In this document: positions 4,989 through 21,843 of the stretch, in pieces | How positions within the stretch are numbered: position 1 is the stretch's first letter | Layout of the letters: every line of letters starts with the position of its first letter | IMG/VR virus record: IMGVR_UViG_3300037507_002719 | Span: 1-21,843 of that record | Strand: one strand, 5' to 3' | Origin: a virus | DNA: 21,843 nt | The notes under the pieces: generated by a model | Told to the model about the DNA's origin: nothing | What the model saw: the letters and a program-made list of their open reading frames with translations, nothing else | The model's database searches: none | Program-made: the position numbers and the translations under genes

Positions 4989-4989
4989 T

Positions 4990-5757: not shown

Positions 5758-5782
5758 TTTTTTAATATAAAGGAAAATAATA

Positions 5783-6412: not shown

Positions 6413-6414
6413 TT

Positions 6415-7667: not shown

Positions 7668-8398
7668 CTAAACACCTGATACAAAAGATATTAGAGCTAG
7701 CTCATAAAAAGAAAGAGGGGCATATAGGAAGCTCTCTTTCTATTCTTGATATTTTATATGTTCTTTACGGTAAATTTATTACAAACACAAACAATAAATT
7801 TATATTGTCCAAGGGGCATGCATCTTTAGGGCTTTATGTTGTATTAAATAATTTTAATTTACTGAAATGCGATATAAACAGTTTTTGTGATTTTAATTCA
7901 GAACTTGGTGGCCATCCGTGCAATAAAACAGAATCGGTAGAGACATCAACTGGTTCGTTGGGCCACGGATTACCAATAGCTGTTGGAATGGCAATGGGAT
8001 ATAAGATACAAAATAAAGATAATAAAGTTTTTGTCTTAATAGGTGATGGAGAAGCGAACGAAGGTTCTATATGGGAATCTGCTATGCTAGCATCACACCA
8101 CAAACTAAACAATCTTTATTGCGTATTGGACCACAACAGATCAGGAGATAGAGCAGTAAAAATTGATGATGTAAAAGAAAAATTTAAATCATTTAATTGG
8201 GACTGTCTTGAAGTAGACGGACACGATCAACGACAATTGATTGATGCTTTTTCTCATACATCAGAAGACAAGCCAATTTTTATTCTTGCAAATACCATAA
8301 AAGGTAAAGGCATTAAAGTGATGGAGAATAATCCAGAGTGGCATCACAAGTCTCCAAATATTGATGAGTTGAATATTTTTATCGGTGAGCTAAATTAA
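7664..8398 (+). CDS. transketolase-like protein, N-terminal (ThDP-binding) subunit
   Basis: This is half of a split transketolase. The PP domain motifs are present: LSKGHASLGLY (48-58), GSLGHGLPIAVGMA (97-110) and the thiamine-diphosphate/Mg motif GDGEANEG (127-134) ending at N158 (GDG-x28-N). H20 and the HH pair at 145-146 fall in catalytic regions. The 244 residues cover only the N-terminal domain. The C-terminal part is the next gene, which starts inside this stop (TAATG). Split transketolases are common in bacteria and archaea, and pairs of this kind also occur in surface-sugar clusters. Here a role in making an unusual sugar, rather than the pentose phosphate pathway, is suggested by the neighbours only. 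Confidence 0.88.
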   Translation: MTKHLIQKILELAHKKKEGHIGSSLSILDILYVLYGKFITNTNNKFILSKGHASLGLYVVLNNFNLLKCDINSFCDFNSELGGHPCNKTESVETSTGSLGHGLPIAVGMAMGYKIQNKDNKVFVLIGDGEANEGSIWESAMLASHHKLNNLYCVLDHNRSGDRAVKIDDVKEKFKSFNWDCLEVDGHDQRQLIDAFSHTSEDKPIFILANTIKGKGIKVMENNPEWHHKSPNIDELNIFIGELN

Positions 8399-9273
8399 TG
8401 AGAAAACAATTTACAAAATCTATACAAGAAATTTTATATTCAAATGAAAAAACTTGTCTGCTTCTTGGGGATATAGGAGTATTTGGTTTCAGAAATGAAC
8501 TAAAAAACATTCCATCCAGAGCCTACAATATAGGAATCCTTGAGCAGGCCACGATAGGTGTGGCAGCAGGACTGGCCAAGACGGGTTTAATTCCATTTGT
8601 ACACACCATCGCACCGTTCATCGTAGAACGAGCTCTGGAGCAGCTAAAGGTCGATTTTGGTTATCAATGTTTAAATGGTAATTTTATCAGTGTTGGTGCG
8701 TCATATGATTATGCATCTCTCGGATGCACCCACCACTGCCCAGCAGATATTTCCTGCTTGCTGTCTATACCTAATATGGAAATAGTGTGTCCCGGAACAT
8801 CAGCAGATTTTGATAAATTATTAAAAGTTAGTTACAATAATGGAAACCCTACTTACTTTAGATTAAGTGAATTTGAAAATACTGAAGAATTTGAAGTTTC
8901 TTTTGGAAAAGCAATTGTTGTAAAAAAGGGATCCAAAGCAACAATTGTATGTTATGGAAATATTTTACAATCGGTATTGAATGCCACAAAAGACTTAGAT
9001 GTTACGATTCTGTATTATACAACAGTAAGACCTTTTGATGCCGATACTTTGATGCAAAATAGCAACGAGATTATTATAATTTGTGAACCTTTTTATGAAG
9101 GAACTACAAATTATTTAATAACAAAGGCATTAGAAGGACAAAAATATAAATTATACAATATAGGAATTCCTCGTAAATTTTTAACAAACTACGGCACAAA
9201 AAAACAGCACGATGCTAATATCGAAATGGATGAGGTTGGCATAAATAAAAGGGTATTGGAATGCTTGAAATAA
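8398..9273 (+). CDS. transketolase-like protein, C-terminal (Pyr plus C-terminal domain) subunit
   Basis: This is the partner of the preceding gene (291 residues). NIGILEQATIGVAAGLA (44-60) holds the conserved glutamate (E49) that activates ThDP. GASYDYASLGCTHHCPADI (about 100-118) matches the transketolase/DXS-type Pyr domain. The last 120 residues form the C-terminal domain (IVCYGNIL, then IIICEPFYEG). The subunits should form an alpha2beta2-type enzyme. Bases 8521-8760 have about 47% G+C by hand count (112 of 240), while lines before and after have 20-28%; the Pyr-domain core therefore differs in composition from the rest of the gene. It overlaps the following SDR gene by 13 bases. Confidence 0.87.
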   Translation: MRKQFTKSIQEILYSNEKTCLLLGDIGVFGFRNELKNIPSRAYNIGILEQATIGVAAGLAKTGLIPFVHTIAPFIVERALEQLKVDFGYQCLNGNFISVGASYDYASLGCTHHCPADISCLLSIPNMEIVCPGTSADFDKLLKVSYNNGNPTYFRLSEFENTEEFEVSFGKAIVVKKGSKATIVCYGNILQSVLNATKDLDVTILYYTTVRPFDADTLMQNSNEIIIICEPFYEGTTNYLITKALEGQKYKLYNIGIPRKFLTNYGTKKQHDANIEMDEVGINKRVLECLK

Positions 9274-10277
9274 TTTATAAAGACGCAGACAAAACAATCA
9301 ATTCTATTGATTTTTCTAAACTAGCAAATAAAAAAATACTGATTACCGGCGCATCTGGTCTAATCGGGCTTCACATTGTTGCAACTCTGGTACAGCTAAA
9401 AAAGAAAAAAGATCTAGAAATATTTTGCTGGGTCAATTCTAAACTAGATAAAAAAATATCAAATTTGTTTGAAACATGCAATGTTATTTTTGGAAACCTT
9501 ACAGATGCAAAAACAATTGCAGAAGTAAATGAAAAATTTGATGTGATCATTCATGCTGCAGGATATGCCCAGCCACAAAAATTTACTGGCGATAAGTTAA
9601 ATACCATAAAATTAAATACAGAAACAACTAATAATCTTTTTAATTTACTAAAACCAAACGGCACATTTGTTTTTTGTAGTACCAGTGAAATTTATAGCGG
9701 TTTGGTCAAGGAAAACATAACAGAAGAAGAGATCGGAACCACCACACCAGATCATCCTCGCTCATGTTATATTGAAAGTAAAAGATGCGGTGAAACCATA
9801 TGTCACGCTTATAAAGACAAAGGATTTGATGTAAAAATTGCTAGGATTAGTTTGGCTTACGGTCCTGGAACCAGAATAAATGATTCTAGAGTCATGCATA
9901 GCATTATACAAAAAGGTCTAGAGCAAGGCGAGATAACACTCTTAGACAGCGGAATGTCCATGAGAACATATGGTTATGTTATGGATTTGGTAGAAATGAT
10001 ATTTAATATTACTTTACATGGAAAAAATACAGTGTATAATGTATGCGGAGATTCTAAAATTTTAATAAGTGAGTTGGCTTCCAAGATAAGTAATAAATTA
10101 AATTGTAGTCTTTCTATTCCTAAAGATGATAAAAATGCATTGTCTGGGAATCCAAAAGCTGTAAATCTAAGTTTAAAAAGATATACAAACGAATTTGGTA
10201 AACCACAATTTATTAAAATTGAAGAAGGAATCGAAAAAACAATTTCTTGGCAAAAATACATATGCGACAAACAATAA
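9261..10277 (+). CDS. NAD-dependent nucleotide-sugar epimerase/dehydratase-like SDR
   Basis: An extended short-chain dehydrogenase/reductase of 338 residues. TGASGLIG (29-36) is the NAD(P)-binding loop, IIHAAG (96-101) the next strand, CSTSEIY (139-145) the catalytic Ser/Thr region, and Y170-x3-K174 the catalytic pair. HPRSCYIESKRCGE resembles the segment in UDP-glucuronate decarboxylases and dTDP-glucose dehydratases. The 20-residue N-terminal extension is typical of neither, and the reaction cannot be assigned. It overlaps the transketolase C-subunit upstream and the ColD-like gene downstream by about 13-16 bases. It could therefore complete the dideoxyhexose branch (C5-epimerase/C4-reductase, ColC role) or act with the transketolase pair. 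Confidence 0.8.
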   Translation: MLEIIYKDADKTINSIDFSKLANKKILITGASGLIGLHIVATLVQLKKKKDLEIFCWVNSKLDKKISNLFETCNVIFGNLTDAKTIAEVNEKFDVIIHAAGYAQPQKFTGDKLNTIKLNTETTNNLFNLLKPNGTFVFCSTSEIYSGLVKENITEEEIGTTTPDHPRSCYIESKRCGETICHAYKDKGFDVKIARISLAYGPGTRINDSRVMHSIIQKGLEQGEITLLDSGMSMRTYGYVMDLVEMIFNITLHGKNTVYNVCGDSKILISELASKISNKLNCSLSIPKDDKNALSGNPKAVNLSLKRYTNEFGKPQFIKIEEGIEKTISWQKYICDKQ

Positions 10278-11422
10278 AACTTGTAAAAGACACCATTTCA
10301 AATAATGAAATAGATCAATTGTGTGATTGGTTAAAAACCTACCCGCAATTAACTAAAGGCAAATTAACCGAACAATTTGAAAGTGAGTGGGCTAATTGGC
10401 TTGGGGTCAAGCATGCAGTATTCCTTAATTCCGGATCCTCCGCTAATTTAGCTATGGTATATGCTTTAAAGGTTAGCAACAAACTAAAAAATAATAAAAT
10501 TATTGTACCCTGCGTATCGTGGGTTACTACAATTAGTCCAGCCATTCAGCTTGGATTGGAGCCCATTCTTTGCGAAACTGATAAAGACACTTTGGGATTA
10601 GATATAGAGTATTTTGAAAAACTTTGCAAAGAACACAATCCAGCATGCGTTATTTTAGTACATGTGTTGGGCTTTCCAAATAAAATGGAAGAAATACAAA
10701 ATATTTGTAAAAAATATGATGTAATTCTTCTTGAAGATTCTTGCGAAAGCGTTGGAACAGAATACAAAGGAAAACAAACCGGAACCTTTGGTTTAATGTC
10801 ATCGTTTTCAACGTACTTCGGCCACCACTTTTCTACAATAGAAGGTGGTTTTGTTTGCACTAACGATTTTGAATTATATGAAATATTAAAATCAATTAGA
10901 TCTCATGGATGGAGCCGTGATCTTTCTAAAGAAACAAAAGAAAAATTGCAAGCCGAAAATAATATAGATGATTTTAGAAATTTTTATACTTTTTATTATC
11001 CGGGATTTAATTTAAGAGCAACAGATGTTCAAGCATTTTTGGGAATCAATCAACTCAAAACATTAAAAGAAAAAAATATAAAAAGATATCAAAACTTTTT
11101 ATTGTATGATTCTTTAATTAAAAATGATTATTGGAAAATAAAATACTCTGATTTTGTTAGTAATTTTGCATATCCCATAATTCACCCAAATAAAAGCAAA
11201 ATAGCAAACAATTTACAAAATGGAAATGTTGAATGTCGTCCGTTGATTTGCGGCAGTATGTCTCGGCAACCATTTTATTATAAACAATTTGGTTTGCAAG
11301 TATTTCCGTTCTCAGACATAATCCATAATCATGGATTATATTTGCCAAATAATCCGGATATGACAGAAGAAGATATCAAATACATTGCAAACATTGTAAA
11401 TGAAACAATTATAAAGGAATAA
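10262..11422 (+). CDS. colD: ColD-like GDP-4-keto-6-deoxy-D-mannose 3-dehydratase
   Basis: A DegT/DnrJ/EryC1-fold PLP enzyme (386 residues from the ATG at 10262). LNSGSSANL (55-63) binds the cofactor phosphate and LLEDSCES (156-163) supplies the aspartate that pairs with PLP. The usual Schiff-base lysine is absent: GTFGLMSSFSTYFGHHFS (174-191) followed by TIEGG has His-His (188-189) where aminotransferases have Lys. ColD of Escherichia coli O55, which removes the C3 hydroxyl on the way to GDP-colitose, has histidine there and the same GTFGLM...HH...EGG layout. RPLICG and the HNHGLYLPNN segment near the end also match ColD. An upstream TTG (10247) adds five residues but is less likely. The gene lies directly before fcl and gmd, which fits the substrate. 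Confidence 0.85.
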   Translation: MRQTIKLVKDTISNNEIDQLCDWLKTYPQLTKGKLTEQFESEWANWLGVKHAVFLNSGSSANLAMVYALKVSNKLKNNKIIVPCVSWVTTISPAIQLGLEPILCETDKDTLGLDIEYFEKLCKEHNPACVILVHVLGFPNKMEEIQNICKKYDVILLEDSCESVGTEYKGKQTGTFGLMSSFSTYFGHHFSTIEGGFVCTNDFELYEILKSIRSHGWSRDLSKETKEKLQAENNIDDFRNFYTFYYPGFNLRATDVQAFLGINQLKTLKEKNIKRYQNFLLYDSLIKNDYWKIKYSDFVSNFAYPIIHPNKSKIANNLQNGNVECRPLICGSMSRQPFYYKQFGLQVFPFSDIIHNHGLYLPNNPDMTEEDIKYIANIVNETIIKE

Positions 11423-11423
11423 G

Positions 11424-12368
11424 ATGAATAAAAATTCAAAAATATTTGTGGCTGGACATAGAGGTTTAATAGGTTCAGCAATAGTAAGAAAACTAGAAGA
11501 AAAAGGCTATACAAACATTATTAAACGAACACGCCAAGAGATGGACTTGAGAGATCAGTTGGCTGTCTGGCATTTCTTTAATAAAGAAAAGCCCGAATAT
11601 GTATTTTTGTGTGCTGCTAAAGTGGGTGGTATCGGCTGGAATAAAGAATGCCCAGCAGAGTTTACATACGACAATTTACAAATACAAAATAATGTAATAC
11701 ACAGCGCCCATCTTACTGGAACAAAAAAACTATTATTTTTAGGATCAGCATGCATTTATCCAAAAATCACACCACAACCAATTAAAGAAGAATATTTGAT
11801 GACGGGTGAGTTGGAAGAAACCAATGCTGGTTATGCTTTGGCTAAAATTGTTGGTTTAAAAATGTGTCAATATTATAAACAACAATATGGTTTCAATTGC
11901 ATTTCATTGATGCCAGCAAATGCATATGGAATAAATGATAATTTTAATATTCAAAAGTGTCACGTAATTCCAGCTCTTATTAGAAAATTTATTGATGCTA
12001 AAGAAAACAATTTACCTACGGTAACATGTTTTGGCGATGGCACACCAACAAGAGAATTTATTTGCTCAGATGATATGGCAGATGCTTGTGTATTTTTAAT
12101 GAATACCTATAATGAGTCAGACATTATTAACGTTGGAACGGGAATGGATGTTACAATAAAGGAATTGGCAGAAACAATAAAAGAAAAAGTGGGTTACACT
12201 GGAAAAATTGTTTGGGATACTAGTAAACCAAACGGAACACCACTTAGAAAGTTAAGTAATGAAAGACTCAATAAACTTGGTTGGGAATCTAAAATTAATT
12301 TAAATGAAGGTATCTCCAAAACAATAAACTGGTATATGGCAAATAGAGAAAATTATGATAGAAACTAA
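11424..12368 (+). CDS. fcl: GDP-L-fucose synthase (GDP-4-keto-6-deoxymannose epimerase/reductase)
   Basis: This 314-residue SDR converts GDP-4-keto-6-deoxy-D-mannose to GDP-L-fucose with NADPH. FVAGHRGLIGSA (8-19) is the cofactor loop. The catalytic set is complete: S108, C110 (GSACIYP), Y137, K141 and H180 (CHVIPAL), each one position beyond the E. coli Fcl numbering (S107, C109, Y136, K140, H179). LMPANAYGINDNF replaces the usual MPTNLYGPNDNF, so two substrate-side positions differ. ATG 11424 has an ideal ribosome site (AAAGGA, 11413-11418). It overlaps gmd by 14 bases if gmd starts at 12355. It may also serve the colitose branch as a ColC-like enzyme; that is an inference. Confidence 0.93.
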   Translation: MNKNSKIFVAGHRGLIGSAIVRKLEEKGYTNIIKRTRQEMDLRDQLAVWHFFNKEKPEYVFLCAAKVGGIGWNKECPAEFTYDNLQIQNNVIHSAHLTGTKKLLFLGSACIYPKITPQPIKEEYLMTGELEETNAGYALAKIVGLKMCQYYKQQYGFNCISLMPANAYGINDNFNIQKCHVIPALIRKFIDAKENNLPTVTCFGDGTPTREFICSDDMADACVFLMNTYNESDIINVGTGMDVTIKELAETIKEKVGYTGKIVWDTSKPNGTPLRKLSNERLNKLGWESKINLNEGISKTINWYMANRENYDRN

Positions 12369-13383
12369 TACAAAGTATAATATGAAAAAAGCTTTAATAA
12401 TCGGTGCCAATGGACAAGATGCTTCGTACTTAGCAGAGTTTTTAATTGAAAAAAACTATGAAGTACACGGAACAATTAGAAGAAATTCTGTTCCCGAATC
12501 TCAAACAACAAGAATTCAACATCTTCACGATAAAAATTTAATAACACTGCATTATGCGGATTTAACAGATCCAATAAGTATAGAAAGCGCAATACAAAAA
12601 TTGCAACCAGATGAAATTTACCATTTGGCTGCACAGTCTCACGTTCAAATTTCTTTTGAGTTACCACAATATACTTTAGATGTAAATGGTGGTGGTACGC
12701 TTGCCGTTTTAGAGGCAGTAAGAAGATTTTCTCCACATTCTAAAGTCTATCATGCTGCAACCTCAGAAATGTTTGGAAATTCTTCAGATCCAGATGGCTT
12801 TCAAAGAGAAACGACACCGATGATCCCAGTAAGCCCATATGGTTGTGCTAAATTGTACGCCCATACCCTATGCAGAAATTACGCTCAATCTTATGGATTA
12901 TTTGTTTGCTCTGGTATTCTTTTTAACCATGAATCTCCGAGAAGAGGTATTAATTTCGTAACAAATAAAGTTGCTTTACAAGCAGCCAAAATCAAACTTG
13001 GTTTGGCCAATGAGCTTGTACTTGGTAACTTAAAAGCAAAAAGAGACTGGGGCCATGCCAAAGATTATATTGAAGCCATGTGGCTAATGCTACAACAAAA
13101 AGAACCAGATAGTTTTGTAATAGCAACTGGTGAAACAAGAACGGTTGAAGAAATGGTTAATTATGTCTTCAATAGAGTTGGTGTAGACACCAAAAAATAT
13201 ATTCAAACATCTGAAAAATATTGTAGACCGGAAGAGTTGCATTATTTGAAAGGTGATTCTACTAAAGCAAGAACAGTACTAAACTGGAATCCAAAAATTT
13301 CTTTTACTGAAATGATGGACGAAATGGTAGATTATTGGTTAAATAAATTGAAAAAAACAAATGTTGATTTAGTAGATGTTTGA
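12355..13383 (+). CDS. gmd: GDP-mannose 4,6-dehydratase
   Basis: Gmd makes GDP-4-keto-6-deoxy-D-mannose from GDP-D-mannose, the shared precursor of GDP-fucose and GDP-colitose. The sequence shows ALIIGANGQDASYLAEFL (13-30), AAQSHV (92-97), ATSEMFG (135-141, catalytic T/E), Y162-x3-K166 and FNHESPRRG, all hallmarks of the enzyme. The length is normal (342, or 333 from an internal ATG at 12382 that gives the standard MKKALIIG start). I keep 12355 because AGAG lies 6 bases upstream and overlaps of this size are common here, but 12382 fits the family better by length. It is the last gene of the sugar cassette, followed by gp55 after 13 bases. Confidence 0.94.
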   Translation: MIETNTKYNMKKALIIGANGQDASYLAEFLIEKNYEVHGTIRRNSVPESQTTRIQHLHDKNLITLHYADLTDPISIESAIQKLQPDEIYHLAAQSHVQISFELPQYTLDVNGGGTLAVLEAVRRFSPHSKVYHAATSEMFGNSSDPDGFQRETTPMIPVSPYGCAKLYAHTLCRNYAQSYGLFVCSGILFNHESPRRGINFVTNKVALQAAKIKLGLANELVLGNLKAKRDWGHAKDYIEAMWLMLQQKEPDSFVIATGETRTVEEMVNYVFNRVGVDTKKYIQTSEKYCRPEELHYLKGDSTKARTVLNWNPKISFTEMMDEMVDYWLNKLKKTNVDLVDV

Positions 13384-13391
13384 GGTATAAT
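13364..13391 (+). promoter_or_regulatory. possible sigma-70 promoter before gp55
   Basis: TTGATT (13364-13369), 16-base spacer, TATAAT (13386-13391). The -10 is perfect and the -35 is 4/6. The start codon of gp55 lies 5 bases after the -10, so a transcript from here would be leaderless. The same TATAAT also lies between GAGG (13382-13385) and the GTG, so it may simply be an AU-rich ribosome-site spacer. Confidence 0.3.
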
Positions 13392-13396
13392 ATATT

Positions 13397-13966
13397 GTGC
13401 AAAAGCCAAAAAAGAAAAAATCTAAAGCATCAGATGCTGATTATGTAGATAATCAGCAGCTCTACGATGCTTTAGTTGAATATAAAAAGAAATGTAAAGA
13501 TGCAGAAAATTCTGGTAGAAAAAAACCAAAATTACCAGATTATCTTGGTGAATGTATATTAAAGATAGCTTCAAGACTATCTTATCGTCCTAATTTTGCA
13601 AATTACCCATATCGCGAAGAAATGGTGTCAGACGCAGTATTAAATTGCATAACTTACATTGATAATTTTGATCCTAAACTTTCAACCAGCCCATTTGGTT
13701 ATTTAACCCAAATATGCTGGTTTTCTTTTGTACGTATAATCAATAAAGAAAAGAAAGAAAAATATGTGCAATATAAATTTGCAGAACAACAAAACAATAA
13801 AGATTTTCAAAATTGGTTTAATGAAGTGTATGCCGGAGTTGACATTGGGCGTAAAGATTTTTTTGGTTTAACTGATTCTGATATGGAAAGATTTGACGAA
13901 ATATGTGCTCCTAAAAAGCGAGCAAAAAGAAAAAAGAAAACAAAAAAAACTTTGTTTGATATATGA
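13397..13966 (+). CDS. 55: gp55-like late-transcription sigma factor
   Basis: T4 gp55 is a minimal sigma factor that, with gp45 clamp and gp33, directs host RNA polymerase to late promoters. The 189 residues align in pattern with T4 gp55 (185): YVDNQQLYDALVEYK (T4 YVNNKELLQAIIDWK), RPNFANYPYREEMVSDAV (T4 RFNFSGY...KQEMIADGI), NFDPKLSTSPFGYLTQICW (T4 NFDETKYKNPHAYITQACF) and INKEKKEK (T4 IKKERKE). The C-terminus is very basic (KKRAKRKKKTKK) and ends TLFDI, a short hydrophobic tail like the clamp-binding end of T4 gp55. The start is GTG at 13397 with GAGG upstream. The stop overlaps gp47 (ATGA). Confidence 0.92.
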   Translation: MQKPKKKKSKASDADYVDNQQLYDALVEYKKKCKDAENSGRKKPKLPDYLGECILKIASRLSYRPNFANYPYREEMVSDAVLNCITYIDNFDPKLSTSPFGYLTQICWFSFVRIINKEKKEKYVQYKFAEQQNNKDFQNWFNEVYAGVDIGRKDFFGLTDSDMERFDEICAPKKRAKRKKKTKKTLFDI

Positions 13967-15009
13967 AAGCTGTAATATTAAACGATACCCATTTTGGGTA
14001 CAAAGCAGATTCCCCAATAGTTTTAAACTATTTTCTTTCTTTTTTTGAAGAAAATTTATTTCCTTATATAAAAGAAAATAACATTAAAACTATATTTCAT
14101 TTGGGTGATGTTTTTGACAGGAGAAAATATGTCAACTTTAAAACACTTTATGAAGTCAGAAAAAGGTTTTTGGAACCTTTGCGTGACATGGGTGTTAAAT
14201 GTATTGCTATTTGCGGCAATCATGACACCTATTATCGGAATAATAATAGAGTTAATTCATTAGAAGAGTTGGTTTCCCAATATCCAAATTGGGAAATATA
14301 TTCAGAACCAGCAGAGATAAATTTAACAGATTGCTGTGTAGCTTTAATTCCTTGGATTAATTCTGAAAATGAGGAAGTAGCAGCAAAATTTATTTCAGAA
14401 ACATCATGTTCGATATTGCTAGGACATTTAGAGTTATATGGGTTCCAAAGCATACGTGGAGTGTTTGTAGAACAAGGCTATGAACCAAAGCACTTTGATA
14501 AATTTGAGTATGTTCTTACTGGGCATTACCACATCAAGTCTAGTAGGGATAATATACATTACTTGGGTACGCAGTACGAAATGGCTTTCTCAGATGTCAA
14601 GGAAGAGAAAGGTTTCCATGTCTTTGACTTCAGCAATCGTACTTTATCATTTATTAAAAATCCAAAAAAGTTATTCTACACGCTTGATTATAATGAAGAC
14701 TCCACCGAAACCGTGGACCATTCGTTATTTAAAGATTGTTATGTCAAAATTTTTATCAAGAAGCGCACTAAAGCTCCAGCTTTTGAAAAGTACATTGATA
14801 AATTTTATGAAGCGGGGGTGGCAGAGTTGGCAGTAACCGAAGAGGTTTATAGTAACCCGGAGTTAGTTGCGGTAGATGTACATAAAGATACTTTGGAATT
14901 GCTACACGAAGAACTGGATACCATAAACGATAAATCAATAGACAAAAATAAACTTGCCAAAATCGTAGATGAGGCTTATAATAAAGCATTGTCAAAGGAA
15001 GAAGAGTGA
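13963..15009 (+). CDS. 47: gp47-like Mre11-type recombination nuclease subunit
   Basis: With gp46 this forms the phage Mre11/Rad50 (SbcCD-type) complex that resects DNA ends for recombination-dependent replication. All metallophosphatase motifs are visible: D8-x-H10 (NDTHFG), GD49VFDRR, GNHD (85-88), GH155 (LLGHLE) and GHYH (187-190). The length (348) matches T4 gp47 (339). A charged helical C-terminus follows the capping domain. The ATG overlaps the gp55 stop, and the gp46 GTG overlaps this stop, so the three are probably translated as a unit. Identification is firm. Confidence 0.95.
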   Translation: MKAVILNDTHFGYKADSPIVLNYFLSFFEENLFPYIKENNIKTIFHLGDVFDRRKYVNFKTLYEVRKRFLEPLRDMGVKCIAICGNHDTYYRNNNRVNSLEELVSQYPNWEIYSEPAEINLTDCCVALIPWINSENEEVAAKFISETSCSILLGHLELYGFQSIRGVFVEQGYEPKHFDKFEYVLTGHYHIKSSRDNIHYLGTQYEMAFSDVKEEKGFHVFDFSNRTLSFIKNPKKLFYTLDYNEDSTETVDHSLFKDCYVKIFIKKRTKAPAFEKYIDKFYEAGVAELAVTEEVYSNPELVAVDVHKDTLELLHEELDTINDKSIDKNKLAKIVDEAYNKALSKEEE

Positions 15010-16727
15010 TAGAATTTTTATCTGTTCGTTTTAAAAACTTTGGTTCATTTGGAACTAATTTTTCAGAAATTAATTTAAATACAAAAAAGACAACATTGGT
15101 TACGGGAACCAATGGACACGGCAAATCATTTGCTTTGCTTGATTCTCTTTGTTTTGGATTATTTGGTAAACCTTTTCGTCCTATCAATATACCACAGCTA
15201 GTAAACAGCGTTAATGGTAAAGGGTGTGTTGTTGAGATAGAGTTTAATAAATCGGGTTCACATTATCTTGTTCGTCGTGGTCTTTCTCCGAAGATATTTG
15301 AAATTCACAAAGATGGTGAATTGTTAGATCAAAATGCAAAAAGTAAAGACTACCAAGAAATGTTTGAAGAACATATTCTCGGATTTGACTATTCTGCTTT
15401 CAAACAAGTAGTTATTCTTGGCAAATCAAACTTTATCCCATTCATGCAACTGACTCCAGCAGAGCGAAGAAAAATTATTGAGGGTTTGCTTGAATTGGAT
15501 ATTTTGGCTGATATGAATCTTTATGTTCGTGGCCAACTTGGTTCTCTTAAAGTTTCTATTGCAGAGAATGAAAGTTTACTAAAGATTGCACACGAAAAAA
15601 TCAAATCTCAAAAAGATTTTATCAATCAGGTTAAAAACAACAATGCAGACGATATTAAAATTTTAGATGAAAGAATTAAAAGTTATTCTGAAGAGATTAT
15701 AAAAACTACGGATCTTAAATCAGAACACGCTAAACTATATTCTAAAAAATCCAAAGAACTGCAAACTTTAAAGAAAAAAATTGATAATCTTAAAGATGTT
15801 CCCGTAATGCTTGTAAAACTTGAAACTTTAAAGACTACGGTGCTTGAAGAACTTCAATCTTTAGAATCTAGTGCAACTTGTAAGTGCTGCGGGCAAACTT
15901 TACCAGAAGAACAACACAAAAAACACAAGGCAGAAAAGCACTCTAAAGCAGAGGAACTACTAAGTGCTCTCAAGACAGCCAGAATAAAAGAAACGCAACT
16001 GGAGGAGTTTAAGAAGGATTATGATGCTTTGGATGAGGAGTTGCAGATAATTGCAAACGACATAAATGCGTTAAGTTATAAAATTGGAAATGCTGAATCC
16101 AATATTAAAATTTTGCAAAAAGATAAGAAAGAAAAAGAAGCTTCTAACAATCTGACCAATCTACTGGTTAGTTTGGAAAATTCAGAGAGTAAAAAGAATG
16201 ACATTTCCCAAGAATTGGAAAAACTTGTTTCAGAACAAATTCACCACGATGTTGTATATGATATCCTCAAGGATGGCGGTCTTAAGAGCCGCATTATCAA
16301 ACATTATGTTCCCATCATCAATGGACTCGTCAACAAGTTCCTCGGAAAGCTTAACCTCTATGTTGACTTCACCATCGATGAGGAATTTAAGGAAACAATC
16401 AAGTCTAGATACCGAGATGAATTTTCATATTCCTCTTTCTCTGAGGGAGAAAAACAGCGTATCGATTTGGCCATACTGCTGACTTGGCGTGAAATAGCAA
16501 AGATGAAAAACAGTTTGAATTGCAATCTTTTAATTTTTGACGAAATATTAGATTCTTCTTTAGACACTGCTGGGACAGAATCTTTTTTAAAAATTCTTAA
16601 TAAAATGAAAAACAAGTGTTCTATATTTATTATTAGTCACAAAGCAGATCAATTTGTTGATAAATTTGATCAATCACTACAATTTGAAAAGAAAAATAAT
16701 TTTTCAAAAATAAAAGCATATATCTAA
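15006..16727 (+). CDS. 46: gp46-like Rad50-type recombination ATPase subunit
   Basis: An SMC/Rad50-type ABC ATPase, partner of gp47. Order: Walker A GTNGHGKS (34-41); FGKPFRPINIPQLVNS (53-68), typical of T4 gp46; Q-loop region QVVILGKSNFIPFM (134-147); coiled coil about 180-285; zinc hook C292-K-C-C295; returning coiled coil about 300-412; ABC signature SFSEGEKQR (477-485); Walker B LLIFDEILD (508-516); H-loop SH (544-545). The 573 residues compare with 560 in T4. The start is GTG 15006, overlapping the gp47 stop by 4 bases. Bases near 16250-16480, encoding the C-terminal ATPase lobe, look richer in G+C than the coiled-coil part. Confidence 0.96.
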   Translation: MIEFLSVRFKNFGSFGTNFSEINLNTKKTTLVTGTNGHGKSFALLDSLCFGLFGKPFRPINIPQLVNSVNGKGCVVEIEFNKSGSHYLVRRGLSPKIFEIHKDGELLDQNAKSKDYQEMFEEHILGFDYSAFKQVVILGKSNFIPFMQLTPAERRKIIEGLLELDILADMNLYVRGQLGSLKVSIAENESLLKIAHEKIKSQKDFINQVKNNNADDIKILDERIKSYSEEIIKTTDLKSEHAKLYSKKSKELQTLKKKIDNLKDVPVMLVKLETLKTTVLEELQSLESSATCKCCGQTLPEEQHKKHKAEKHSKAEELLSALKTARIKETQLEEFKKDYDALDEELQIIANDINALSYKIGNAESNIKILQKDKKEKEASNNLTNLLVSLENSESKKNDISQELEKLVSEQIHHDVVYDILKDGGLKSRIIKHYVPIINGLVNKFLGKLNLYVDFTIDEEFKETIKSRYRDEFSYSSFSEGEKQRIDLAILLTWREIAKMKNSLNCNLLIFDEILDSSLDTAGTESFLKILNKMKNKCSIFIISHKADQFVDKFDQSLQFEKKNNFSKIKAYI

Positions 16728-16730
16728 ATA
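16723..16730 (+). promoter_or_regulatory. late-promoter-like octamer TCTAAATA
   Basis: TCTAAATA resembles the gp55-dependent late -10 element (TATAAATA in T4; CTAAATA-type in marine T4-like phages). It overlaps the gp46 stop codon and lies 7 bases before the ATG of a virion-like gene. The identical octamer precedes the late gene at 20967. One copy alone would be weak evidence in AT-rich DNA. Confidence 0.5.
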
Positions 16731-16737
16731 TTTGTAT

Positions 16738-17022
16738 ATGTTTAGAGGAAAGTACAAAACAAAAGACGAATATGGGCAACCAATACTTTATTCCCGTGGT
16801 GATGTTGTTTTAGATCAGGGAAAGGTTTATCAATGCACTGAAACCACAGTTTACAGCCCATTGCAAAATCCAAATCAATGGAAAATAACTGGTGTAGATC
16901 ATCCCCTAACAGGATCTAACCCACCAATCAAACCAATAGAAAATCAAACTTGGATAAGTGATTCCGGAAATCAATACATCTATTATAAAGATGGAAATGG
17001 TTTTCAATGGATAGAAACTTGA
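16738..17022 (+). CDS. small virion-like protein (carbohydrate-binding/tail-type motifs)
   Basis: 94 residues from the ATG at 16738 (a TTG at 16732 adds MY). The first half, YSRGDVVLDQGKVYQC then NPNQWKI, follows the 'Y..GDVV..~G..Y.C...~..P..~..W' pattern of CBM5/12-like modules on phage tail proteins. The end, NQTWISDSGNQYIYYKDGN followed by QWIE, matches the 'G.TW.D...g..YvYY.D....QWVE' motif common in cyanophage structural proteins. No ribosome site is visible, and a late-promoter-like TCTAAATA lies just upstream, so it may be expressed late from a nearly leaderless mRNA although it sits among replication genes. Likely a minor structural or adhesion protein; the exact role is unknown. Confidence 0.65.
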   Translation: MFRGKYKTKDEYGQPILYSRGDVVLDQGKVYQCTETTVYSPLQNPNQWKITGVDHPLTGSNPPIKPIENQTWISDSGNQYIYYKDGNGFQWIET

Positions 17023-17046
17023 TTTTAATATTACTGGAGTTATAAT
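17019..17046 (+). promoter_or_regulatory. possible sigma-70 promoter before the small basic gene and gp45
   Basis: TTGATT (17019-17024), 16-base spacer, TATAAT (17041-17046), the same arrangement as before gp55. The next ATG (17053) is 6 bases after the -10, implying a leaderless RNA; GGAG at 17036-17039 is too far upstream to be a normal ribosome site. It could supply gp45, gp44, gp62 and regA independently of the cassette promoter. Confidence 0.4.
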
Positions 17047-17052
17047 AGAATT

Positions 17053-17205
17053 ATGAATGAAGAGAGTTTTGAAAAATTTACTAATCGCCGCAAGAATAAA
17101 CCATCGGGATTCAGCAAAAAACAACAAAACAGAAACAAGCGTGGCAACAGACACGAACAAAAGCAAAAGCTAAACGATTCGATGTATAGAAAAGATTTTG
17201 ATTAA
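17053..17205 (+). CDS. small highly basic hypothetical protein
   Basis: A 50-residue frame with a sensible start (ATG 17053) and stop (TAA), filling the gap between the virion-like gene and gp45. It begins MNEESFEKFTNRRKNKP and is rich in Lys, Arg, Asn and Gln (NRNKRGNRHEQKQK, 27-40), with a calculated excess of positive charge and almost no hydrophobic core. Such a protein may bind nucleic acid or be disordered. I do not recognise a family. Position directly before gp45, a possible promoter just upstream and the good ribosome site of gp45 after its stop suggest it belongs to the replication transcript. Confidence 0.6.
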   Translation: MNEESFEKFTNRRKNKPSGFSKKQQNRNKRGNRHEQKQKLNDSMYRKDFD

Positions 17206-17223
17206 TTTTTATAAAGGATTTAT

Positions 17224-17895
17224 ATGAATACTGTGACAAAAATGCGTTTATCTAAAGAGACACTTAACATACTAAAAAACTTCTCGGCAATCAATTCAAA
17301 CATTTTGATTAAGCCCGGAAACATTCTACGCACAAAATCTGCATCAAATAACATTTATGCAGAAGCTAAAATTAGCGAAGAATTTGAAACAGAAGTTCCA
17401 ATCTGGGATTTAAATAAGTTTCTAGGCGTTGTTAGTATGTTTGTAAATCCAGACTTGGAATTTAATGATACTCACGTTGATATTTCAAATGGCAGGTCAT
17501 TTGTAAGATACCATTACTCTGAGCCAAGCCTTTTGACAGTTGCCAAAAAGGGAATGGATATCCCAGAAAGCATCATTAGTTTTGATCTCAGTGAAGCAAA
17601 TCTTAATGAAATTCTTAAGGCTTCTAGCATTCTTCAAGTTAGCGATTTGAAGATTATTGCCAAAGATGGTAATCTTAAAATTTATGTTGACGATCAAAAT
17701 GATGACACATCAAATAGTTTTTCTTTAATTGTAAATGAAAACTATAGTGGTCCAGATTATGAGGGTAATTTTAACGTTTCAGCAATTAAGTTTTACCCTG
17801 GCTCTTACAAAGTAAATCTTACAAAAAATGTAATTACACAATTTGTTCATGAGTCTGGACTGCTTTCGTATTGCATCGCAACTAAGAGGGATTAA
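17224..17895 (+). CDS. 45: gp45-like sliding clamp
   Basis: The trimeric ring that holds DNA polymerase on DNA and also activates late transcription together with gp55. The 223 residues resemble T4 gp45 (228): MRLSKETLNILKNFSAINSN (7-26; T4 MKLSKDTTALLKNFATINSG), ILRTKSASNNIYAEAKIS (T4 IMTRAVNGTTYAEANIS), WDLNKFLGVVSMF (T4 YDLNGFLGILSLV), and near the end KFYPGSYKVNLTKN (T4 KMQPGNYKLLLWAK). The start ATG 17224 has AAAGGA at 17213-17218; the second Met (residue 7) would match the T4 start, so the first six residues are less certain. Two bases separate it from gp44. Confidence 0.94.
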   Translation: MNTVTKMRLSKETLNILKNFSAINSNILIKPGNILRTKSASNNIYAEAKISEEFETEVPIWDLNKFLGVVSMFVNPDLEFNDTHVDISNGRSFVRYHYSEPSLLTVAKKGMDIPESIISFDLSEANLNEILKASSILQVSDLKIIAKDGNLKIYVDDQNDDTSNSFSLIVNENYSGPDYEGNFNVSAIKFYPGSYKVNLTKNVITQFVHESGLLSYCIATKRD

Positions 17896-17897
17896 TT

Positions 17898-18839
17898 TTG
17901 TCTACAATTAAAAACTTAATTTGGGTCGAAAAATACCGACCCGATAAGCTATCAGATTGCATTCTGCCAATTGAATTGTCTACCATGTTTAAAGGCATGG
18001 TAGATGATGGCAAAATACCAAATATGCTGTTTTATGGTAAAGCTGGGACTGGTAAGACTTCTGTTGCCAAAGTTTTGGCAAAAGAGTTGAACATGAATTC
18101 ATTGATAATTAACTGCTCCGAAGACAATGGAATGGAAACTCTTCGGGTAAAAATTCGTCAGTATGCATCCACAGTTTCTTTGACTGGTAATGGAAAAGTC
18201 ATTATTTTAGATGAATTTGATTATGCTACCAATGGTGTTCAAACTGGATTGAGAGGTGCCATAGAAGAGTTTGCAAATAGTTGTAGATTTATTCTTACTT
18301 GTAACTACAAAAACAGAGTGATTGATCCACTTCACTCAAGGTGCACTGGAATTGATTTTACCATTCCATCAAGTGAAAGAGCCACAGTTGCATCAGAAGT
18401 TTTGAAGAGAGTGGAATTTATTCTTCAAGAGGAAAAAGTTCCATATGAAAAAAATGTTTTGGTCACTCTAATTAAAAAACATTTTCCAGATATTAGAAGA
18501 ATAATTAACGAATTACAAAAGTATTCTTCTTGTGGGAAAATTGATGTTGGTGTTTTGACTCAAGCAAGTAGCGAGTCTTTTAAAGAACTTATTGGATATA
18601 TGAAAGCAAAAGATTTTGCTTCTTGTCGTAAATGGATTGTTACAAATATTGATCTGAATACGACAGAGTTTTTTAAAAAGCTTTATAGTGAACTTTATAC
18701 TTCGCTAAAGCCAAATTCCATTCCACAGGCAATTCTTATAATTGCGGAATACCAATATAAATCTAGTTTTGCTGCGGACCAGGAAATTAATAACATGGCA
18801 ATGCTTGTTCAATTAATGATGGATTGTGAGTTTGCATGA
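17898..18839 (+). CDS. 44: gp44-like clamp loader ATPase subunit
   Basis: An AAA+ ATPase that, with gp62, opens and loads the gp45 clamp. EKYRPDKLSDCILP (11-24) is the family N-terminus (T4 QKYRPSTIDECILP). Walker A is GKAGTGKT (47-54), Walker B IILDEFD (102-108), and SRC (147-149) carries the arginine finger that senses ATP in the next subunit. KKHFPDIRRIINELQKYSS matches the T4 collar-side segment. The length (313) equals that of T4 (319) closely. The start is TTG 17898 with AGAGGG at 17885-17890; no nearby in-frame ATG fits. The stop overlaps gp62 (ATGA), as expected for two subunits made in a fixed ratio. Confidence 0.95.
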   Translation: MSTIKNLIWVEKYRPDKLSDCILPIELSTMFKGMVDDGKIPNMLFYGKAGTGKTSVAKVLAKELNMNSLIINCSEDNGMETLRVKIRQYASTVSLTGNGKVIILDEFDYATNGVQTGLRGAIEEFANSCRFILTCNYKNRVIDPLHSRCTGIDFTIPSSERATVASEVLKRVEFILQEEKVPYEKNVLVTLIKKHFPDIRRIINELQKYSSCGKIDVGVLTQASSESFKELIGYMKAKDFASCRKWIVTNIDLNTTEFFKKLYSELYTSLKPNSIPQAILIIAEYQYKSSFAADQEINNMAMLVQLMMDCEFA

Positions 18840-19225
18840 AATTATTTGATTTTGTAAACAGTATCAGTTACAATAAAATAGATCTTTTTGAGACAGACGA
18901 AAAAGCTGAAAAGCTTTATTTGCCGTATTTGGTTAATAAAAATTTTTCATTCTTTGTTGACACTATATTTCACGCAAATGAAATGAATTGTTGCTGGGCG
19001 TTGGATAAAAAAATGCAATTTGATTTTATGCGATTTGGAATCCGCAAAAAGAAAAGACGGAGCACCTGGCTAAAAAAAGAAACTGAAGAAAATATAGAAA
19101 TAATAAAACAAGCCTACGGTTACAATAATTCCAAGGCCCAAGAAGTTCTAAATATACTTGGACCCCGTGAAATAGAACTGTTAAAACAGTCTTTATATAA
19201 GGGTGGAACTAATAAGGATGAGTGA
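18836..19225 (+). CDS. 62: gp62-like clamp loader small subunit
   Basis: The single small subunit of the gp44/62 clamp loader, which bridges the ATPase arc. It is identified mainly by position between gp44 and regA and by resemblance to the short gp62 of marine T4-like phages (start MKLFDFVNSI, and YLPYLVNKNFSFF with HANEMN about 29-49). At 129 residues it is much shorter than T4 gp62 (187), and direct similarity to the T4 protein is faint. GIRKKKRRSTWLKKE (68-82) is a basic linker. The ATG overlaps the gp44 stop and the gene ends within the regA start region. Confidence 0.85.
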   Translation: MKLFDFVNSISYNKIDLFETDEKAEKLYLPYLVNKNFSFFVDTIFHANEMNCCWALDKKMQFDFMRFGIRKKKRRSTWLKKETEENIEIIKQAYGYNNSKAQEVLNILGPREIELLKQSLYKGGTNKDE

Positions 19226-19230
19226 ATTTT

Positions 19231-19656
19231 ATGTCGGTTACCTCAGATAAAATTTTTAATAATATAGGCGTTCATGTAAAATTATTTGATGATGAAGATT
19301 TTATGGTAGTGCGAGAAACACTATCTAGAATTGGCGTATCACCAAAAGGTAAAAAGATTTTATATCAATCTTGCCATTTAATTTATAAAAATAATGTTTA
19401 TATTATCGCACATTTTAAAGAGCTTTTTGCGCTGGACGGACTTCCTTCTAATGTATCTGAAGACGATATTAAGCGCAGAAATGCCATTATTCAACTATTA
19501 AAAGATTGGGAGCTTTTAGAAGTAGTTGATGAAGCAAAAATTGAAAATAAAATGCCAGTTAATGGTATTAAAATTATTAAGTATGATGAAAAGGATGATT
19601 GGGACTTGATTCCAAAATTTAATCCAGGTACTCTTCGTAAGTTTTTTAATTCATAA
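19231..19656 (+). CDS. regA: RegA-like translational repressor
   Basis: T4 RegA binds the translation start regions of many early mRNAs, including those of gp44, gp45 and its own gene, and blocks ribosomes. The match is clear: FMVVRETLSRIGV (about 25-37 from the ATG at 19231; T4 FLKVKETLTRMGI), KKILYQSCHLIYKNNVYIIA then HFKE (T4 KVLYQSCHILQKKGKYYIVHFKE), RRNAIIQLLKDWELLEVV (T4 RRDSIAWLLEDWGLIEIV) and DWDLIPKF (T4 EWKLVPKY). It has about 11 extra residues at the N-terminus compared with T4. A GTG at 19222 is an alternative start; I prefer ATG 19231, served by the purine-rich stretch at 19214-19222. The gene overlaps or touches gp62. Confidence 0.93.
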   Translation: MSVTSDKIFNNIGVHVKLFDDEDFMVVRETLSRIGVSPKGKKILYQSCHLIYKNNVYIIAHFKELFALDGLPSNVSEDDIKRRNAIIQLLKDWELLEVVDEAKIENKMPVNGIKIIKYDEKDDWDLIPKFNPGTLRKFFNS

Positions 19657-19665
19657 GGAAAAAAA

Positions 19666-20907
19666 ATGTACAATTTAACTTTAAGCATGATCGTTAAAAA
19701 CGAGGCTCCAAACATTCAAAGATGTCTGGAATCTGTCGCACCATATATTGATTATTATATTATCTGTGACACAGGATCAACAGATAACACAAAAGAAATT
19801 ATCAAAAACTTTTTTGATAGCAAAGGGATTCCCGGTGAAATTTTAGATCACGAATGGAAACACTTTGGACACAATAGATCTTTGGCTCTTGAAGCCTGCC
19901 TTGGCAAGACACAGTGGGCTTTGATGATCGACGCCGATGACTTTATTTCTGGAGCATTTCCAAAAGACAAACTGGATACAAACTTTGATGGTTATATTGT
20001 CAAAATTAAAAGAGGTCCATTTGAGTGGTATCGTGCCCAGCTTTTCAATGTTGGAAAAAAGAAGTGGTGGTACGAAGAACCACTACACGAATATGCAATT
20101 TGTGAACAACCTTTAAACATTGTAAGACTTGAAGGTGATTATGCTTGGGAGGTCCGAACAGAAGGATGCCGAGCAAGAGAAGCCGGGGGAGACGACAGAG
20201 AAAAATATCGAAGAGATTATGAGTTCTTAAAGAAGTATCTTGAAGAACACCCGAATAACGTAAGAACTCAGTTTTACTTAGCTCAATCTGCATTTGATGC
20301 TCATATGTTTGATATTGCAGAAAAAGAATATTTAAAACGAACCACGCAAGGTGGTTGGGTTGAAGAAGTATTCTATTCATGGATGCGCGTAGGAATTTGC
20401 AGAGAATTGCTGGAAAAACCATTAAGTGAAGTTATTGATGCATTCTTAATGGCACACGAAACACTTCCAATAAGAGCAGAACCATTCTGGCAAATGTCTT
20501 GCATTTATAGAAAGCATAATAGAAATAGAAATGCATTTATAATGGCCAGTCACGCATTGAGCATTCCATTGCCACAAGACAATATTTTGTTTGTTGACAC
20601 TGGAGTTTATACTTGGGGAATTTTGGATGAGGTTGCTACCACAGCGGCACACGTTGGTAAATTCCACATGGGATTGGCAGCTTGTGACAAACTATTATCA
20701 GAACCATTCTTACCACAAGAACAAAAAGAACGTGTAATGGCAAATAGAAAATTGTATCACGATACTGTTGCCAAATTTAATGAACAATTGGTAAAACAAC
20801 AAGAAGAAGTTACAAAGAAACAAATGGAAGCAATAGTTAAAGTTAAGGAAAATTCCAATAAAACTACATTAAACATCGATCTTAATAAGCAGCCAGTAAA
20901 GCTTTAA
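19666..20907 (+). CDS. GT2 glycosyltransferase with helical-repeat C-terminal region
   Basis: Residues 1-95 form a family 2 (GT-A) start: LSMIVKNEAPNIQRCLESV (6-24), ICDTGSTDNT (33-42, nucleotide binding) and MIDADD (87-92, the metal-binding DxD-type motif). Residues about 190-350 are helix-rich (YEFLKKYLEEHPNNVRTQFY, then further repeats) and look like TPR-type repeats. The last 45 residues are a charged, Gln/Lys-rich helix. It is 413 residues and soluble, with no membrane segment. It has a strong ribosome site (AAGGA, 19655-19659) and lies directly after regA, where T4 has the DNA polymerase gene 43. A rho-independent terminator follows. Virion or surface-glycan modification is plausible; acceptor and sugar are unknown. 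Confidence 0.82.
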   Translation: MYNLTLSMIVKNEAPNIQRCLESVAPYIDYYIICDTGSTDNTKEIIKNFFDSKGIPGEILDHEWKHFGHNRSLALEACLGKTQWALMIDADDFISGAFPKDKLDTNFDGYIVKIKRGPFEWYRAQLFNVGKKKWWYEEPLHEYAICEQPLNIVRLEGDYAWEVRTEGCRAREAGGDDREKYRRDYEFLKKYLEEHPNNVRTQFYLAQSAFDAHMFDIAEKEYLKRTTQGGWVEEVFYSWMRVGICRELLEKPLSEVIDAFLMAHETLPIRAEPFWQMSCIYRKHNRNRNAFIMASHALSIPLPQDNILFVDTGVYTWGILDEVATTAAHVGKFHMGLAACDKLLSEPFLPQEQKERVMANRKLYHDTVAKFNEQLVKQQEEVTKKQMEAIVKVKENSNKTTLNIDLNKQPVKL

Positions 20908-20913
20908 TAAATC

Positions 20914-20921
20914 TCTAAATA
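20914..20921 (+). promoter_or_regulatory. late-promoter-like octamer TCTAAATA
   Basis: This is the second exact copy of TCTAAATA, 46 bases before the ATG of a virion-type gene. A T4-like late RNA would begin about 6 bases after the octamer, at the base of the hairpin at 20925-20953. Position, match to the marine T4-like late consensus and repetition support the call. Confidence 0.62.
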
Positions 20922-20924
20922 TTT

Positions 20925-20957
20925 AATAATGACCTAGAATATAGGTCATTATTTTTT
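20925..20957 (+). terminator. rho-independent terminator after the GT2 gene
   Basis: A perfect 12-bp stem (AATAATGACCTA / TAGGTCATTATT, 20925-20936 and 20942-20953) with a 5-base loop (GAATA) is followed by a run of T (six in all, 20952-20957). It would end the early transcript that includes gp55 to the GT2 gene. Being followed by GGAG and ATG, the same hairpin would sit at the 5' end of the late transcript. Confidence 0.85.
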
Positions 20958-20966
20958 GGAGAATCA

Positions 20967-21368
20967 ATGGCTCAAAACAATGACATTATTGTAGTAAAGG
21001 GAGACACTGCTCGTTGGTCTGGGTTTTTCACAGGCCTTACGAGCGGTTCTACATTTGATTTTGGTGGAACCACCCTATACATGCAAGTTAGAACTGGCTA
21101 TTATGATGAGCCTCTTGTAGTGGGATATACACAATATATTCAAACAAATGCCACTTTGGCTTTTCCAAAAGGTATTACTGGTGGAATTTCTGCAGGAGCA
21201 ACAGGTGGAACTCTTAATTTTTGTATTGGATCTTCTTTTGCAAATAATTTGACTGCAGATAGAATGTGTAAATATGATGTAAAAGTTTACCATTCTTCTC
21301 TTCAAGACTTACAAACAATTTTACGTGGAAACATACAAGTATTGTCTAACGTATCACAAATAACATAA
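20967..21368 (+). CDS. putative late virion (baseplate/fibre-type) protein
   Basis: 133 residues, mainly beta-type. It opens with NDIIVVKGDTARWSGFF (4-20), recalling the 'i.~~kGDT..~..' N-terminal domain of phage baseplate or upper-fibre proteins (BppU_N-like). A glycine-rich stretch GITGGISAGATGGT (69-82) and an alternating pattern up to the C-terminus KYDVKVYHSSLQDLQTILRG follow; the latter is the same kind of closing strand pair seen in that domain. No signal peptide is seen. GGAG (20958-20961) is a good ribosome site and the gene lies behind a late-promoter-like site. A structural role is inferred from these hints; I do not recognise a specific gene. Confidence 0.6.
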   Translation: MAQNNDIIVVKGDTARWSGFFTGLTSGSTFDFGGTTLYMQVRTGYYDEPLVVGYTQYIQTNATLAFPKGITGGISAGATGGTLNFCIGSSFANNLTADRMCKYDVKVYHSSLQDLQTILRGNIQVLSNVSQIT

Positions 21369-21843
21369 TGTTCTTTGGAAAGAACAAAACATCCTTAAAA
21401 TTGACCAAACAGCATCCAGAAATGCTGATTGGGGATGAATTTTTTATTGTTGAATCTGTAATTTCTCCAAAAATAATAAAAGTTGGTTCTGGATTAACTC
21501 AATTATTTTTAAAAAATTTAGATGGCGAAGAATATTTAATTGAAGGTAATGCTAGTAAAATAAGAGCTCTTTTTACTCCTTCAAAAACTTATGATTCTGT
21601 AGATGGAAAAATTTACAAAGTCAAAAGACCAGCTGCTTCATTTTTGCAGAATGAATATTTAAAGGAAGTTGCGCCCTGCCAATATGATGAAAAAATTCAA
21701 TTGGGACATGGTGTTGCCGAACACTACTTTATACAAAAATCAAATAATAAAGTAGTTAAAGTTTATGGAAATTCTATTCAAATAAAAAATTTACTTGAAG
21801 AATATATTCCAGCCACTAAAGTCGAAAAACCAAAAATAGTTTA
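21368..21843 (+). CDS. hypothetical late protein, C-terminus beyond the window
   Basis: An open frame starts at ATG 21368, sharing one base with the previous stop (TAATG), and stays open to the end (158 codons plus 2 bases). It begins MFFGKNKTSLKLTKQHPEM. EMLIGDEFFIVESV and the repeated short beta patterns suggest a beta-rich fold. TPSKTYDSVDGKIYKVKRPA (91-110) and a late ENLLEEYIPATK-type helix region are the other visible features. I do not recognise the family. Coupled translation with the putative baseplate/fibre gene suggests a late, perhaps structural, product. The ATG has no ribosome site of its own. Confidence 0.6.
   Translation, partial: MFFGKNKTSLKLTKQHPEMLIGDEFFIVESVISPKIIKVGSGLTQLFLKNLDGEEYLIEGNASKIRALFTPSKTYDSVDGKIYKVKRPAASFLQNEYLKEVAPCQYDEKIQLGHGVAEHYFIQKSNNKVVKVYGNSIQIKNLLEEYIPATKVEKPKIV

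Follow-up and report, generated by a model that had tools for sequence, protein, structure and literature searches.

In the virus record IMGVR_UViG_3300037507_002719, the whole of which (21,843 nt) is the window of this analysis, a T4-type late promoter-like octamer is followed within a few bases by a perfect hairpin, and the hairpin by the ribosome site of a gene. The question raised by this locus is what a hairpin does when it lies between a late promoter and the gene that the promoter would serve. The initial annotation had proposed that one element may serve termination, mRNA stability and translation control, an interpretation which the analysis below partly supports. The features of the locus are collected in Table 1.

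Table 1. Features of the promoter-hairpin junction and of genes in the window that bear on it
Feature	Position	Strand	Remark
Late promoter-like octamer, T4-type, TCTAAATA	20914-20921	+	Read directly; gp55 and gp45 encoded in the window
Spacer TTT	20922-20924		Between octamer and stem
Hairpin, 12-bp stem	20925-20953	+	Arms 20925-20936 and 20942-20953; basis: fold, shuffles, pair counts in 26 leaders
5' arm AATAATGACCTA	20925-20936		
Loop GAATA (5 nt)	20937-20941		
3' arm TAGGTCATTATT	20942-20953		100% complementary to the 5' arm
TTTT after the stem	20954-20957	+	Part of a six-T run, 20952-20957
Shine-Dalgarno GGAG	20958-20961	+	5 nt before the ATG
Start codon ATG	20967		Downstream gene
Masking strand UCUCUAAA	20912-20919	+	Overlaps the promoter; predicted partner UUUGGAGA at 20955-20962 in read-through RNA
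Predicted late transcription start	20927-20930	+	6-9 nt past the octamer, inside the stem foot
Downstream gene, 133 aa, phrog_1084 (function unknown)	20967-21368	+	
Upstream glycosyltransferase gene, family 2	19666-20907	+	Anchor for the locus comparison
Late sigma factor gp55 homolog	13397-13966	+	phrog_234, 3.1e-51
Sliding clamp gp45 homolog	17224-17895	+	phrog_223, 5.2e-64

Homologs of T4 UvsY, gp55, gp45, gp62 and RegA are encoded in the window, and gp45 is the activator of late transcription in T4. The phage group is environmental; no DNA match to positions 13300-21843 was found in the phage collection, and no relative was found among the genome contigs searched. Upstream of gene 55, positions 1771-13383 hold a sugar block with family 11 and family 25 glycosyltransferases, a transketolase split over two genes, a DegT-type aminotransferase, a GDP-mannose dehydratase and epimerases. 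The structure model of the 133-aa protein encoded downstream of the hairpin is beta-rich and resembles small phage proteins, and 2 of the 50 fold matches listed are BppU-type by name. A PDB fold search with the model returned nothing at E ≤ 0.001 and mostly generic Ig-like folds, the two PDB matches by sequence (E 0.5-0.6) are not meaningful, and tblastn against named phages found no match. With a mean pLDDT of 63 the model has low confidence, so that a virion role can be suggested only tentatively.

The octamer by itself is weak evidence of a promoter, since matches to TATAAATA with at most one mismatch occur near chance in the window (113 against 96 expected, with 4 of 100 shuffles reaching 113). 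Exact octamers are enriched about tenfold upstream of genes in the relatives G002 and G003: within the 80 nt before genes, exact TCTAAATA was found 6 times against 0.6 expected in G002 and likewise in G003, and exact TATAAATA 9 times against 0.7 in G002 and 12 times against 1.0 in G003. Given that the T4 late promoter is described as an 8-bp box that lies roughly one helical turn ahead of the start and is followed by A/T-rich sequence (PMC2988020), the start is predicted at about 20927-20930, that is, late transcription would begin in or just before the stem foot. Indirect support for this position comes from leaderless relatives, in which the ATG lies 5-8 nt past the motif. Within 16723-16740 the window holds a second TCTAAATA, 7 nt before the ATG at 16738 of a 94-aa gene, and genes similar to this one in G001-G003 have TATAAATA 6-7 nt before their ATG.

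Apart from this hairpin, the window has no perfect 12-bp stem closing a loop of 3-8 nt, and such a stem turns up in 2 of 100 dinucleotide shuffles (mean 0.03). The RNA of 20900-20975 folds at -22.5 kcal/mol (z -5.1), an energy reached by none of 200 shuffles. At gathering scores, no Rfam match was found in the window. The stem GACCTA/TAGGTC is present in 6 of 9 records, in one copy per record and at this junction only, and the stem is near-identical across phages whose downstream protein falls to 34% identity. Covariation of the 12-pair stem was assessed in 26 leaders with 500 shuffles and slid-partner controls. The relatedness of the rows inflates the resulting figures, namely 93.6% of stem cells paired, two-sided changes in 21 cells (a mean of 7.5 in the shuffles, of which none of the 500 is as high, and no more than 5 with a slid partner) and a covariation score of 0.220, compared with 0.136 in the shuffles. 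Two-sided changes fall in 4 of the 12 pairs, mainly as core GA/UC to AG/CU, and three pairs never vary; neither the count of two-sided pairs (205 of 500 shuffles) nor that of pair types (429 of 500) exceeds the shuffles.

Among homologs of the 133-aa protein, the same promoter-hairpin order was seen in L001/L002, L003/L030, L026, L027 and L028 (L027 was found by protein search and lies outside the 80 loci described next), and L029 has CCTAAATA six bases before the ATG, with neither hairpin nor GGAG. For an unbiased sample, loci were chosen by homology to the upstream glycosyltransferase and not by the hairpin. The best 80 of 358 matches were taken, of which L053, L054 and L119 were dropped because the stop codon was not reached before the contig end, and the remaining 77 loci together with the window gave 78 rows. 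Three loci found by hairpin pattern (L046, L047, L049) are biased, and the contigs on which they lie are represented in the unbiased sample by L088, L099 and L056. A row was assigned to the hairpin class if a stem of at least 8 bp follows the motif, and to the leaderless class if the ATG lies within 9 nt of it; near-identical leaders were collapsed to give distinct ones.

As a result, among these best 80 of 358 loci, 41 of the 78 rows show the promoter and then the hairpin, 19 are leaderless (ATG 5-9 nt past the promoter, without hairpin or GGAG) and 18, 15 of them distinct, belong to neither class by rule. The profile of the 133-aa family matches the downstream gene in 41/41 hairpin, 13/19 leaderless and 2/18 other rows; the leaderless rows without a match are L111, L123, L124, L125, L128 and L129. 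GGAG is present in 28 of the 30 distinct hairpin leaders and in none of the 10 distinct leaderless ones. By eye, L063 and L105 also bear the hairpin (L105 ends too early for its gene to be tested) and L072 is leaderless, with the motif over the stop codon; the downstream genes of L063 and L072 match the family. Other arrangements are a gene unmatched by the family profile and preceded by a 9-bp hairpin but no GGAG (L112, L113), a ribosome site with the hairpin absent (L121) and, after the glycosyltransferase stop, a hairpin without GGAG and an ATG a few bases past the T-run (L055, L056, L063).

The promoter-hairpin-GGAG-ATG layout is thus real, unlikely by chance and conserved. The order reported in the initial annotation, with the octamer ending 3 nt before a perfect 12-bp stem and the ribosome site after it, is read directly in the window and holds in the 41 rows. 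Its view that the late mRNA would begin at or close to the hairpin agrees with the predicted start in the window and with the same promoter-then-hairpin order in those rows; in 10 of the 30 distinct leaders the stem begins 9-11 nt past the motif, and therefore not every leader would place the hairpin at the extreme 5' end. The region from the last 80 nt of the upstream gene up to the motif contains a 7-bp stem with 3 G-C pairs in 0/41 hairpin rows, so that the hairpin lies only on the late-RNA side, and a hairpin of this kind is absent from the junction in 18 of the 19 leaderless rows.

On the glycosyltransferase tree (65 rows) the design changes five times, and three times among the rows with a matching downstream gene. 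Hairpin and ribosome site go together over 5 independent pairs (p 0.06), or 3 pairs in same-gene rows (p 0.25), numbers too few to reach 0.05, and part of the link is inherent, because neither would fit into a leader of 5-9 nt. The sequences give hints that the hairpin and the near-absent leader of the relatives may be two ways to keep the gene silent until late.

Leaderless starts appear to extend beyond this gene. In the loci behind these counts (L012-L016 for G002, L017-L023 for G003, L037-L039 for G007 and L040-L042 for the pelagiphage HTVC008M), the motif lies 4-8 nt before the ATG in 17/29, 18/43, 6/13 and 14/28 motif-bearing genes, respectively, and a Shine-Dalgarno-like word is present in 1, 1, 0 and 2 of these. 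The remaining motif-bearing genes have such a word in 10/12, 18/25, 6/7 and 11/14 cases. The commonest spacing is 5 nt, with 12 genes each in G002 and G003, and five permuted motifs give at most 5 genes at any spacing. In smaller records the 4-8 nt spacing was seen in 1/4 (G000), 2/8 (G001), 1/5 (G004), 0/4 (G005) and 0/4 (G006), and it was absent from T4 70-120 kb (0/14) and S-SM2 60-110 kb (0/10). Given the closeness of the motif to the ATG and the near lack of Shine-Dalgarno words, many late mRNAs of G002, G003, G007 and HTVC008M look leaderless. Our literature search on leaderless late transcripts in T4-like phages found no paper on the subject: in PMC9004378 and PMC7892664 the word "leaderless" occurs only within a cited title, a passing remark describes phage transcripts as often leaderless (PMC5312081), a passage on the Thermus phage phiYS40 describes its middle/late mRNAs as leaderless (PMC3594737), and a pelagimyophage survey reports late-promoter prediction as unsuccessful (PMC7029224).

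The hairpin, in turn, appears confined to one gene family on the contigs compared. A stem of at least 8 bp within 8 nt of the motif was found in 6 of 44 genes with 20-62 nt leaders on eight contigs, where sums over contigs are not independent because G000, G001 and G002 share regions, and all 6 belong to the 133-aa gene family. The same promoter-hairpin pairing at other late genes, for which the initial annotation had proposed to look, was thus not found on these contigs, and since all six stems near the motif belong to this gene, the module looks gene-specific.

A further pairing, between the promoter and Shine-Dalgarno strands, had been missed by the initial annotation. For the read-through RNA of the window, a helix of 20912-20919 with 20955-20962 is predicted atop the hairpin, where it would hide GGAG. 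The in silico probability that GGAG is unpaired is 0.003 for the read-through form and 0.72 for late RNA, or 0.001 and 0.48 in a rerun with other flank and shuffle, and 3% of 200 shuffled upstream stretches give a read-through value as low. In L052 (on the L003 contig), masking is by AAUCUC/GAGAUU, pairs that differ from UCUCUAAA/UUUGGAGA of the window. A survey of 29 rows (28 distinct leaders, as the window and L050 share one) gave a median unpaired probability of 0.42 in late, 0.21 in read-through and 0.29 in shuffled RNA. The read-through value is below the late one in 21/29 rows and not lower in 8/29, most clearly L061, L085 and L097. Masking falls within the lowest 5% of a row's own shuffles in 6/29 rows, where about 1.5 are expected, and at 90% or above in 2/29, related rows not being independent; L050, which has the leader of the window, stands at 19% of its shuffles. 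The values also shift with flank and shuffle, as in L106 (0.009 against 0.329 in read-through RNA between runs), and a further run of the survey with another flank and other shuffles placed 9/29 rows below 0.1, some rows having moved between runs. Masking as a family-wide function of the hairpin was rejected, being clear in only 6/29 rows; as judged from these predicted folds, it is likely for the lineage of the window and for a minority of the other rows.

Taken together, we tentatively favour, at just under even confidence, a hairpin element of the late-mRNA leader, with read-through masking in the window lineage. Late RNA polymerase would start in or just before the stem foot, and the late mRNA would begin with the hairpin, which would protect its 5' end and keep the ribosome site clear of upstream sequence. 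Read-through RNA from the regA-glycosyltransferase side would be poorly translated; in the window lineage the partner of UCUCUAAA on the far side of the hairpin would be UUUGGAGA, and the UCUCUAAA strand would be missing from late RNA. Because the masking strand is weak or absent in other lineages, the role shared by all would be stability and ribosome-site insulation.

The hairpin could instead be an intrinsic terminator that ends the regA-glycosyltransferase transcripts and that late polymerase passes fully or in part, which we regard as unlikely but a serious contender. A G-C core, an A-rich foot and a T-rich tail would fit it, with TTATTTTTT in 13 of the 30 distinct leaders, a six-T run in 15 (the window has six T) and 5-8 T in the 9-nt tail of all 30. 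Such tails are unusual for GGAG sites in these phages: of 45 GGAG genes on six contigs, 37 have 1-4 T in the 9 nt ahead of GGAG and only 4 have at least 6, 3 of which are this gene, so that the T-rich tail goes with the hairpin. L056, moreover, retains hairpin and T-run without GGAG. A simple terminator scan of the window did not list the hairpin, probably since the full stem has only 4 T after it, and a looser scan (hairpins with at least 2 G-C pairs and a T-tail within 90 nt after called genes) listed it among 15 such hairpins in G002, its 3 G-C pairs lying within the range seen, and did not list the G003 copy.

Against termination stands the position of the hairpin, which is 3' of the late promoter in every hairpin row: as it lies in the late RNA, about 30 nt past the start, the late RNA would stop too, and an efficient terminator would defeat the late promoter. 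The tail is not kept throughout either, since in L052, L073 and L097 the paired stem abuts GGAG with zero bases between, the copy on the L052 contig is unlisted by the looser scan, and the tail of L061 and L085 is TTAATT. Of the 31 T-tailed hairpins that follow genes in G002 and G003, 21 have at least 4 G-C pairs, against 3 here, and 4 lie just before a late-type motif, the opposite order; nor does the junction of nearly all leaderless rows carry such a hairpin. Sites of this reverse order lie at about 67408-67480 in G002 and about 43360-43435 and 102389-102460 in G003. The terminator role proposed in the initial annotation thus keeps the T-rich tail and the G002 listing in its favour, and loses ground through the placing inside the late transcript and the T-runs missing from relatives. 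Termination appears possible but awkward, partial termination or a late polymerase passing the hairpin is possible, and, from the sequences compared, a leader hairpin with ribosome-site control is more likely than a terminator.

A narrower form of the leader reading, in which the hairpin serves mRNA stability or insulation only and the masking in the window is a by-product of A/T-rich sequence, seems to us improbable. It would explain why the hairpin is conserved with compensatory changes and the masking is not; however, the window and L052 reach masking through different pairs, and the excess of rows with low shuffle ranks, among rows not independent, also speaks against a by-product. A binding site through which a phage protein such as RegA or DNA polymerase, both RNA-binding repressors in T4, would control the downstream gene would suit the single copy per record and the near-identical stem, but it is very improbable, since the loop and core bases vary, the latter with compensation, which argues for a structure rather than a sequence-read site.

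In T4-like phages one and the same strand can be read in overlapping early and late transcription, and this is why T4 masks ribosome sites at a few of its genes. In the hairpin design, the site would be masked in read-through transcripts, or cut off from them; in the leaderless design the ATG would lie at the late start, and the read-through RNA would have no ribosome site to expose. That one gene is held back until late by two interchangeable leader designs behind the same promoter, with about three lineage switches, is a rather unlikely but suggestive proposal. The hairpin may also act as a phase-selective terminator that late polymerase, being clamp-bound, would pass and early polymerase would not. 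With a conserved module of promoter and hairpin at one gene, and leaderless starts as its alternative, these phages offer a natural series on the purpose of a late leader.

Compared with known systems, the module shares with intrinsic terminators a stem-loop and a T-rich tail; unlike them, it has a mostly A-U stem with 3 G-C pairs, a T-run that is not kept in all relatives, and a place on the 3' side of a promoter. The module would resemble 5'-terminal stabilising hairpins such as the ompA leader in having a stem close to or at the 5' terminus of the RNA, followed by the ribosome site. As in T4-type late promoters, the octamer is TAAATA-type and gp55 and gp45 homologs are present in the window. 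Its second-position C is also described for the late promoter of Aeromonas phage Aeh1 (PMC2988020), and the late promoter of cyanophage S-PM2 is given as NATAAATA (PMC2984593). Unlike in the tested T4 and S-SM2 stretches, the motifs of several relatives often lie about 5 nt from the ATG. The closest precedent is that of T4 e, soc, 49 and I-TevI, described as having a ribosome site masked in long early RNA and free in late RNA, and a late promoter that lies within the 5' masking strand (PMC3014915). The predicted read-through masking of GGAG in the window is alike, as is the overlap of the promoter with the 5' masking strand, which the late RNA would be without. In contrast to that precedent (PMC3014915), the gene here is none of those four, masking is found in a minority of relatives, and a separate 12-bp hairpin stands between the masking strands and would be kept in the late RNA.
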